A stretch of 64,000 nt of DNA from Acidimicrobiia bacterium (lineage in GTDB: Bacteria; Actinomycetota; Acidimicrobiia; Spongiisociales; UBA11373), in assembly GCA_040878325.1 (NCBI GenBank), contig JBBDMM010000018.1, positions 1 to 64,000 of the forward strand, given 5' to 3'. A program made the position numbers and the translations under genes. Under the pieces are notes generated by a model. That model was not told the origin of the DNA. It saw nothing but the letters and a program-made list of their open reading frames with translations, and ran no database searches. Shown piece by piece: positions 32,572-36,110 of this stretch (position 1 is the first letter of the stretch; every line of letters begins with the position of its first letter).

Positions 32572-33366
32572 CTATTGGCCTGCCGCCGCCAATGCCTTGG
32601 CCGCGACCTCCGTGCCCGCCCATGCGGGGCAGATCGATTGGAACGAGCACCAGTCGCAGAGGCGGCTGACCCGTGGGGGGAACCGTTCTTCGTCGATGGC
32701 CTTGTCGATCGCGGACCAGAGCGCTCGCAGTTGACGGTCCATCGCGTCCAGTTGGGCGTCGTTCACCGGGATCCGGTACACCGTCGGCCCGTTCAAGTAC
32801 ATCAGCTGGATCTCGTCGGGAGTGCGCCCGGTCTTGCGGCGGATCAACAGCGCATAGATCTTGAGAGCGAAGAATGCCGGAAGGGCGTATCGCTCGGGGG
32901 GCGCCTTTCCCGTCTTGTAGTCGGTGATCACCAGCCGGCCATCGGCGGTCTCCTCCATCCGGTCGAGGATTCCCCGGATGGTGATGCCTTCGAGATCCTC
33001 GAGCATGTCGAGTTCGCGATCGATGGGATCGAACGAGGTGGGGTCCTCGATCGAGAAGTAGTTGGCCAACAGGGCGAGACTCTCGATCCCCCAGGCTCGT
33101 TCCTCCTCGGTCGTCTCGAACAGGCCCTCGTATTCGCCCATCCGCACCTCGGCCCAAGCGACGCGGAACAGATCGAAGAGCACTTCGGGCGTTCGGCCTG
33201 CGGCGGGTAGGTCGAACAGCCGTTGCAGAGCGAGGTGAGCCGTGGTGCCTCGTGCCTGATAGACCGTGGTCGGTTCAGGCAGGCGGTCGATCGCTCGGAA
33301 TTTGAAGAGCTGGGGGCAGGTCTTGAAATCGCTTGCCCGGCTCGGACTCAATGTCTCCAGTCCCAT
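32572..33366 (-). CDS. RecB-family PD-(D/E)XK nuclease with likely iron-sulfur cluster
   Basis: The 264-residue protein has SPSRASDFKTCPQLFKFR at the N-terminus, the nuclease core with ITDYKTG and a downstream ALKIYALL helix, and the C-terminal CDWCSFQSIC. The early Cys plus these three fit the four-Cys cluster of RecB/AddB/Cas4-like nucleases. No cas gene is nearby. A free-standing protein of this kind is widespread in actinobacteria. It stands 15 bases from the gdhA stop, convergent. Confidence 0.85.
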   Translation of the reverse strand: MGLETLSPSRASDFKTCPQLFKFRAIDRLPEPTTVYQARGTTAHLALQRLFDLPAAGRTPEVLFDLFRVAWAEVRMGEYEGLFETTEEERAWGIESLALLANYFSIEDPTSFDPIDRELDMLEDLEGITIRGILDRMEETADGRLVITDYKTGKAPPERYALPAFFALKIYALLIRRKTGRTPDEIQLMYLNGPTVYRIPVNDAQLDAMDRQLRALWSAIDKAIDEERFPPRVSRLCDWCSFQSICPAWAGTEVAAKALAAAGQ

Positions 33367-34607: not shown

Positions 34608-34960
34608 GCGCGAAAACTCGGGTAGGCACGCGAAAACGAGATAGCAGTTTCGGTTGCCCGCGTCGTGGGCAAGGTCGTATGGTGCCCCCAGTTCTTCCCG
34701 AGGATCCGAAAGGAAACACGGGAGGCGGCCCCGGGGACCACCCCGCAAGGGGTCGCCGGAGAGGGTCTTCGGGCTCACTTCGGCGCCACGGGGCCACGGC
34801 CCACCGCTGGGCTTCGGTCCAGCAGGAGGGTGCCGGGCGGTGGCAACACCGGTCGGTTCCCCCTGGGGAGCAGCCCGCAAGGGTTTGCTCAACGGGGGGA
34901 CATGGAGCCCCGAGAGGGCTGCGGCTTCGGCCAAAGCTTTCTCGGGGTTCCACCTTTTTG
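34608..34960 (+). ncRNA. Putative structured RNA, unit 1 of a tandem pair
   Basis: No protein gene fits here. A promoter-like block (CGCGAAAACTC at 34609, ACGCGAAA at 34628, ATAGC at 34641) is repeated in the same register 420 bases further on. After it comes a series of hairpins, including TTGCCC/GGGCAA and CCCC-GCAA-GGGG and GCCC-GCAA-GGGT with GNRA-type loops. It ends with a terminator-like stem AGCCCCGAGA/TCTCGGGGTT (34906-34949) with an inner GGC-TTCG-GCC hairpin and a T-run to 34960. The transcript would be about 300 nt. The class is not recognised: RNase P, tmRNA and SRP signatures are absent. A 6S/Ms1-like RNA is possible by size only. Confidence 0.55.
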
Positions 34961-34967
34961 GAGTCTC

Positions 34968-35021
34968 CAGTCTCCAGTCTCTCCAGTCTCCAGATTCCAG
35001 TCTCCAGTGACTGGAGACTGG
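34968..35021. repeat. Heptamer array, CCAGTCT type, with a 12-bp dyad
   Basis: Tandem CCAGTCT-type units separate the two RNA candidates. CCAGTCTCCAGT (34997-35008) and ACTGGAGACTGG (35010-35021) form a perfect inverted repeat around one base. Confidence 0.85.
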
Positions 35022-35027
35022 AATTGC

Positions 35028-35340
35028 CCGCGAAAACTCCGGCTGAGACGCGAAATCCATATAGCGTTCTGGCTTGCGCTCGGTGGGGGTGGCACGTACT
35101 GTCCCACTTGTCCAAGCAGCGATGCGGGGATGCCAAGAGCCGGTAACGGCAGGCGGCGGCTTCCGACCTAGCTCCTTCGGGAGGGTCGCATCGGCCGAAA
35201 GGTACGGTGCGGTCGCCGGGCCGGCTTTGACACCGAACTTCGGTTCGAGGTCAGGGACAGGAGCGATTCGCAAGGAGCGCTTCGATCGGAACAACCCCGA
35301 GAGGGTGGAGGCTTCGGCCAAGACTCCCTCGGGGTTTTCC
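35028..35340 (+). ncRNA. Putative structured RNA, unit 2 of a tandem pair
   Basis: The promoter-like block repeats that of unit 1 (CGCGAAAACTC at 35029, ACGCGAAA at 35048, ATAGC at 35061, with identical spacing). The body shows related features, such as CGTAnnGTnCC near the 5' end and a GCAAGGA loop near the 3' end, plus GCTCC-TTCG-GGAG. It ends in AACCCCGAG.../CTCGGGGTTTT (35293-35338) with the same inner GGC-TTCG-GCC hairpin. Stem bases differ between the copies while pairing is kept. Predicted length is about 270 nt. Function unknown. Confidence 0.55.
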
Positions 35341-35480
35341 GCGTTCTGGGGGCGAACTCCATCGAATCTGCGCCGTAGCAATCGGTCGATGCCGCCGGGG
35401 CGATCATCCCGGGAGGCTTCTCTATGCGCTCAGTCTGACATTCCGGCCCGCCGGCCCGTCACCAGGCCCCTGCCCGCGCC

Positions 35481-35486
35481 TACTCT
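35481..35486 (+). promoter_or_regulatory. Putative leaderless -10 element TACTCT
   Basis: TACTCT-TGGCAC-ATG: the hexamer lies six bases before the start at 35493. The same hexamer and nearly the same spacer occur at 42141. Confidence 0.5.
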
Positions 35487-35492
35487 TGGCAC

Positions 35493-36110
35493 ATGTCCTA
35501 CCCCGAAAAGTTTCTGACCGAGGGCGAGTCCGTAGTCCGGGAGTTCCGCCCGCATTGGCGACTGCTCTTCATCCCATTCGCGTGGACGCTGCTGTTCGCC
35601 GCGCTGATCTTCCTCACCTGGCGTTACCCGCCCGACAACAGCACCTTCGACTGGGCCGTGACCGGAATCGTTCTCCTGGCATTCCTGAAGTTGGGCCTCT
35701 ACCCCTTCATTGCCTGGTGGTTCACCCACTACATAGTGACCAACGAGCGCATCATCCGGCGCAGCGGGATCCTCTCCCGCGCCGGCACGGAGATCCCGCT
35801 TGAGAACATCAACCACATGTCGTTCTCGCAGTCGATCCTCGAGCGGATTCTGCGCTCCGGCGACCTGCTGATCGAGTCGGCCGGCGAGAACGCCCAGTCG
35901 AACTTCAACGACATCCCCCAGCCTGAGGCGTTCCAGAGCCTCGTCTACCGCCTGCGCGAACTGCGGGCGAAGAGCCTGGGGAGGGACGGCATCGAGGAGA
36001 CCGACACGGTGGCCCAGTTGGAGCGATTTGGCGCACTCCTCAAGGAGGGCCTGATCACCCAGGACGAGTACGACCGCCAGAAGGCAAAACTCCTCCGCGA
36101 CCAGACCTAA
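35493..36110 (+). CDS. Membrane protein with bacterial PH domain and SHOCT domain
   Basis: The 205-residue protein has two membrane segments (about 25-42 and 56-75), then a bPH2-type domain (HYIVTNERIIRRSGILSRAGTEIPLENINHM is typical of the YdbS/YdbT group), and a C-terminal SHOCT motif (LERFGALLKEGLITQDEYDRQKAKLL). SHOCT motifs are thought to mediate oligomer or nucleic-acid contacts. No enzyme function is expected. It appears to be monocistronic. Confidence 0.85.
   Translation: MSYPEKFLTEGESVVREFRPHWRLLFIPFAWTLLFAALIFLTWRYPPDNSTFDWAVTGIVLLAFLKLGLYPFIAWWFTHYIVTNERIIRRSGILSRAGTEIPLENINHMSFSQSILERILRSGDLLIESAGENAQSNFNDIPQPEAFQSLVYRLRELRAKSLGRDGIEETDTVAQLERFGALLKEGLITQDEYDRQKAKLLRDQT

Follow-up and report, generated by a model that had tools for sequence, protein, structure and literature searches.

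Two predicted small-RNA genes, read from the sequence as a tandem pair on the + strand at about 34690-34959 and 35107-35346 of the window (the whole 64,000-nucleotide stretch of Acidimicrobiia DNA analysed here), are putative members of an uncatalogued, fast-evolving and order-wide kind of RNA gene that is kept at one chromosomal locus. The larger finding, which goes beyond the tandem pair, is this order-wide locus together with a promoter box, CGCGAAA-N13-CGCGAAA, which the predicted RNA genes have in common with dnaA and nrdJ of relatives. The original prediction, two structured RNA genes in tandem without a recognised class, is borne out, in that there is no Rfam match, homologues exist and covariation is positive. 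We describe a putative RNA family with no Rfam entry, in a bacterial class where 14 family genomes show no 6S RNA. The source genome is of 2.2 Mb in 18 contigs, nearly all the named records are metagenome assemblies, and the analysis is sequence-based throughout.

Layout and promoters of the tandem units

The genes around the two units encode PDDEXK_1, MFS_1 and bPH_2 proteins (Pfam). The features of the locus are:

32575-33366, - strand: PDDEXK_1 (RecB-like) nuclease gene, upstream landmark (PF12705, 1.6e-35); conserved neighbour
34609-34635, + strand: unit 1 upstream regulatory box, exact CGCGAAA-N13-CGCGAAA; fixed distance in family units
34654-34659, + strand: unit 1 -35, TTGCCC, at position 45 from the box start, the position seen in other RNA boxes too
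34678-34683, + strand: unit 1 -10, TATGGT, at position 69 from the box start (68-70 in 25/25 units)
34690-34959, + strand: predicted unit 1 RNA, about 270 nt; fold z = -7.8; matches in 12/14 family genomes (own genome included, some over the terminator alone)
34694-34801, + strand: unit 1 conserved core (covariance model R1); 8/30 pairs changed on both sides
34908-34947, + strand: unit 1 composite terminator hairpin, from repeat comparison, followed by TTCCACCTTTTT
35029-35055, + strand: unit 2 upstream regulatory box, exact match; fixed distance in family units
35074-35079, + strand: unit 2 -35, TTGCGC, at position 45 from the box start
35097-35102, + strand: unit 2 -10, TACTGT, at position 68 from the box start
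35107-35346, + strand: predicted unit 2 RNA, about 240 nt; fold z = -3.6; matches in 14/14 family genomes (counted likewise)
35109-35222, + strand: unit 2 conserved core (covariance model R2); 11/34 pairs changed on both sides
35295-35334, + strand: unit 2 composite terminator hairpin, from repeat comparison, followed by TTTTCCGCGTTC
35493-36110, + strand: bPH_2 + SHOCT protein gene, downstream landmark (PF03703); predicted leaderless promoter TACTCT at 35481-35486

The box is a 20-bp direct repeat, and in both units its distance to a TTGNCN / TANNNT promoter of the primary-sigma type is fixed. This spacing is constant in the window's family: the TANNNT is found 68-70 bases from the first base of the box in all 25 units inspected and the TTG usually at 45, and the box itself sometimes shows a mismatch. 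A whole-genome pattern search recovered only two exact boxes in the genome of the window, both at these RNA units. Box-RNAs of several other families display the same -35/-10 geometry, giving 55 distinct boxes in all. The blocks originally read as promoter-like, CGCGAAAACTC at 34609 and 35029 (420 bases apart) and ACGCGAAA at 34628 and 35048, do match in register and are conserved, and ATAGC is present at +32 in both units; however, they represent a regulatory repeat upstream of the -35/-10 hexamers, with the promoters lying further down. As the -10 spacing is fixed in all 25 family units, transcription is predicted to begin at about 34690 and 35107, in place of the starts earlier expected near 34650 and 35070. 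We infer that the box is an upstream element of the activator-bound kind, two helical turns long. A literature search for the box word gave nothing relevant among the matches listed.

Each unit ends in a composite terminator of the form CCCCGAG...GGCTTCGGCC...CTCGGGG, and the two terminators, noted at the outset as having this stem in common, are 83% identical over 42 bases (34908-34949 and 35295-35336). This terminator recurs in named records labelled Acidimicrobiia, Actinobacteria or the like, nearly all of them metagenome assemblies. The description of the pair as duplicated is apt for the promoter and the terminator but not for the bodies, whose cores are not recognisably alike. Model R1 scores unit 2 at 14.2 bits in the window and at 12-15 bits in relatives, values that are inseparable from background in a 39-kb scan. 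Judged on their sequences, the two units appear to have bodies of different RNA types behind a common promoter and before a common terminator. The space between the units holds, at 34966-35022, TCCAGTCTCCAG repeats that belong to a short repeat dispersed through the genome in more than 20 copies; comparable short tandem repeats come after the RNA genes in some relatives.

Conservation of the locus and selection on folding

Unit-type RNAs with compensatory base changes were identified in 14/14 genomes examined from the window's family. The homologous intergenic sequence looked for in related genomes was found for unit 1 in 12 and for unit 2 in all 14 of them, counts which include the window's own genome and some matches that cover the terminator alone. 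Model R1 matches 9 of the 14 family genomes, five genomes of family f8 and one of family f2, with the box upstream of each; the box is not part of this model, and three of the f8 sequences were in its alignment. The matches of model R2, in nine genomes, are all from the window's family. Both copies are unit-2-like in genus g8, and G003 has a single unit in which a unit-1-like start is joined to a unit-2-like end, arrangements which imply that the copies turn over. The two units are separated by about 8 kb in G004 and G005, suggesting that action in cis is not required.

Outside the window's family the bodies soon diverge beyond detection by the models, while the locus, the box-promoter and the terminator are retained. 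Across the class, 40 of the 65 flanks fetched, each of at least 600 bases (61 from the order and four from the f12 genus), have a box-driven RNA no more than 2.5 kb from the same PDDEXK nuclease gene; about one third of the fetched flanks are without a box-RNA, some of the flanks being short, and divergent boxes would escape. None of the four nuclease-gene flanks from the f12 genus has a box-driven promoter within 2.5 kb. In six families a box-RNA lies by the PDDEXK_1 nuclease gene, in several of these with a bPH_2 gene on its other side, and several of the flanks, like the window, carry a tandem of two RNAs. With promoter, locus and terminator preserved around diverging bodies, these genes offer a good case of an RNA gene persisting without persistence of its sequence, and a warning that orthologous sRNAs are missed when searching by sequence or covariance alone. 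A survey of 2.9 million viral contigs for spread into viruses returned five pattern matches, none of which resembles these RNAs.

Single-sequence folds of the first-guess transcripts beat every shuffle for both units (z = -7.8 and -3.6), and the predicted MFE and consensus folds are strings of hairpins capped by UUCG and GNRA loops, with large covariation terms in the consensus folds drawn from the aligned relatives of unit 1 and unit 2. The covariation check that had been called for on the aligned units and their homologues was positive for both cores, each above all 500 shuffles: the unit 1 core has 17 both-side-change cells (7.6 shuffled) and a covariation of 0.250 (0.185 shuffled), and the unit 2 core 32 such cells (11.8 shuffled) and 0.328 (0.154 shuffled), figures for which the structures were drawn from the same alignments they were scored on and which relatedness inflates. 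Pairing is 94% in this test and about 50% after a one-base slide, and the signal is still strong. Among 82 non-redundant bodies, which were chosen by promoter and terminator and not by body structure, tetraloop hairpins are enriched over shuffled sequence with each of three loops: TTCG (146 versus 6.8), GCAA (76 versus 3.4) and GAAA (71 versus 5.5). The compensatory base changes and this tetraloop enrichment together point to selection on RNA folding. Some box-RNAs (L254, L169 and L132) contain internally repeated hairpins, e.g. GGCACACTGCCAATCTGGCTTCGGTCAGGGA, a possible sign that they grew as hairpins were duplicated.

The box beyond the RNA units

The exact box is present in 159 of 395 genomes of the class, and the reversed control pattern gave one match. 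By an approximate hand count the order accounts for about 120 of these (out of 138 genomes), the low-GC f12 genus for about 34 (out of 42) and the remaining 215 genomes for 5, the last rate being near background. A phylum sample yielded the box with TTG in five genomes of the class, all from the window's order, and in one genome elsewhere. The latter, L312 (G460), the sample's single such case beyond the class, is a lone box with TTG at 45, TAGATT at 69 and a short hairpin GCACCCG...CGGGTGC followed by TTTTC.

Targets outside the RNA units were counted among the matches listed. There, dnaA is downstream of the box in other families of the order (L138, L139, L143, L144, L147, L150, L151 and L164), with at least six DnaA proteins confirmed by Pfam, and a class II (B12-dependent) ribonucleotide reductase is downstream of it in L146 and L148, with at least two confirmed by Pfam. 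In the f12 genus, which has low-GC genomes of about 1 Mb (L104-L131), the box lies between dnaA and the rnpA region, with at least one DnaA confirmed. The boxes before dnaA and the class II ribonucleotide reductase are without the fixed -10. Promoters of rRNA were considered as further targets and rejected, as no box is found upstream of 16S rRNA in the window's family. Given that genes for DnaA and class II ribonucleotide reductase have this box in relatives, the RNAs are probable members of a regulon linked to growth or replication. One regulator appears to join dnaA, dNTP synthesis and the structured RNAs through the box, which provides a handle on this putative protein.

Further boxes occur in other settings. 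L142 has three CGCGAAA units in 20-bp steps close upstream of an ORF, which suggests a repeat-binding protein able to stack. In L134 and L136 the box is followed by about 100 conserved, RNA-like bases (CACAGGCGGAGT...GGGGCCTGT) and a GC-rich terminator, without a TTG -35, and in family f7 (L152, L153, L155 and L158) it precedes a conserved stretch, CCCGCCACCACCTGTCCTG, without the fixed promoter. One genome from a different order (L103) has repeats of the CGCGAAATGGCG type immediately 5' of an mraZ-like gene.

Relation to known RNAs and possible functions

At the gathering cut-off no Rfam family matches anywhere in the window, on which ground RNase P, tmRNA, SRP RNA and the known riboswitches were rejected; the best sub-threshold match in the region of the units scores 23.5 bits against a cut-off of 45, in keeping with the earlier failure to place the units in a class. 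Nothing reached threshold in 38 related loci searched at gathering score and at a loose E-value, and ARAGORN found no tRNA or tmRNA in the window. The RNAs are like 6S RNA (RF00013) in size class and in having a single locus, and 6S too has two paralogues in some bacteria. They differ from it in that their predicted folds are multi-hairpin, and not the single long hairpin with a promoter-mimicking central bubble; the 6S model matches none of the 14 family genomes at gathering score, in a search whose control gave a match in 5 of 14 known genomes.

Ms1 RNA, known from mycobacteria, Rhodococcus and Streptomyces, forms one long hairpin that opens into a central bubble, and has a HAD-IB hydrolase or oxidoreductase gene alongside (PMC4191392, PMC9130861). 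It resembles the RNAs described here as an actinobacterial structured sRNA of similar length with a primary-sigma-like promoter and a single conserved locus, and also in its weak sequence conservation, which leaves synteny as the main guide. Unlike Ms1, the present RNAs are predicted hairpin strings in tandem units; their landmarks are the PDDEXK nuclease and bPH_2 genes, and their box is a direct repeat of CGCGAAA. Assignment to Ms1 was rejected, as the predicted folds lack the long hairpin with a single-stranded central bubble described in PMC4191392, and as the neighbours are PDDEXK_1, MFS_1 and bPH_2 genes and not the HAD-IB hydrolase / oxidoreductase / CpaE-type flanks; one Ms1 synteny word list does include 'PH', a gene label beside Ms1 in Cellulomonas that might stand for the same protein. 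Of the initial suggestion of the 6S/Ms1 size class, therefore, a functional guess survives, with neither 6S in the 14 family genomes nor the Ms1 flanking genes and bubble hairpin here. CoRP of Corynebacterium glutamicum, one 516-nt RNA cut into two, with tRNA genes flanking and RNA polymerase binding shown (PMC11077062), is likewise a lineage-specific, long, structured actinobacterial RNA missed by Ms1/6S synteny and structure searches; the polymerase binding demonstrated for CoRP is only proposed for the RNAs considered here. Actinobacteria do have RNA-polymerase-binding RNAs that escape similarity searches (PMC9130861, PMC11077062).

We propose that a DNA-binding protein would recognise the box and set transcription by growth or replication state, a regulator of this kind being suggested by the same box preceding dnaA and the class II ribonucleotide reductase in relatives. 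The two units would be independent sRNA genes whose products act in trans. In the likeliest mechanism the folded RNAs would attach to some part of the core gene-expression machinery and so fill, in this lineage, the role of 6S, Ms1 and CoRP elsewhere. Being folded throughout with no conserved open seed, the RNAs are suggestive of protein binding, and we rate trans-acting protein-binding RNAs as a serious possibility that falls a little short of even. RNA polymerase would be the first candidate, because the search-evading actinobacterial RNAs Ms1 and CoRP bind it and 6S was not found in the family; as the actual partner it is possible, though doubtful, and the predicted hairpin string without a bubble and the lack of adjacent Ms1 landmark genes speak against it. 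Against any common protein partner stands the fast change of the bodies between families, in which a shared binding surface is not evident. The broadest reading, in which order-wide RNAs are co-regulated with dnaA and ribonucleotide reductase, locus, box and terminator being fixed and the ultra-stable hairpin-string body free, and in which the paired RNA couples growth or cell cycle to the gene-expression machinery, we regard as rather unlikely; if true, it would be a new way of achieving such coupling.

The design just described is also that of CsrB and RsmX/Y/Z under the GacA upstream activating sequence, which combine a box, a sigma70-type promoter, a variable hairpin body and a terminator and are often multicopy, although the box here is a direct repeat whereas the GacA site is a palindrome. 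An unlikely alternative is hence a sponge, with a box-bound regulator driving hairpin RNAs that titrate a non-CsrA protein recognising capped hairpins; it would account for the upstream box, the promoter, the variable hairpin string, the strong terminator and the tandem copies, and for the repeated hairpins of some bodies (L254, L169). However, CsrA (PF02599) is missing from 14/14 family genomes, which excludes a CsrA sponge for the family, and is found in 23/137 in the order; and the GGA triplet is only slightly enriched over the 82 bodies (749 versus 677 expected), the loops being mostly UUCG and GNRA. Membership of the CsrB/Rsm group was rejected, with neither CsrA nor many loop GGA motifs found. 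Loops of the UUCG and GNRA kinds cap RNA structures generally and are not known as sponge motifs.

Cell-cycle sRNAs with dnaA-type targets exist elsewhere, and a box common to dnaA and the class II ribonucleotide reductase would suit base-pairing sRNAs that tune, for example, dnaA or nrdJ; yet the predicted folds leave little of the bodies unpaired, and no shared single-stranded segment is kept across families, making this quite improbable. The retention of locus, box and terminator while bodies diverge, and the presence of the box before dnaA (in the f12 genus, in the interval from dnaA to rnpA), could also mean that what counts is the DNA element or transcription itself, as at a replication-linked chromosomal site, with the RNA a by-product; we consider this very improbable in view of the selection on folding shown by the compensatory changes and tetraloops. 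That the RNAs are a cis-acting leader or attenuator of bPH_2 is hardly credible, for all that about 150 bases separate the end of unit 2 from that gene in a neighbourhood conserved in several families, since unit 1 is followed by another promoter and not by a gene, the units are some 8 kb apart in G004 and G005, and bPH_2 has its own predicted leaderless promoter, by which token unit 2 would not be its leader: in place of co-transcription with unit 2, TANNNT is found 5-8 nt before the bPH_2 start codon in 28/33 relatives, the placement that leaderless mRNAs should show, against 0 in the control window.
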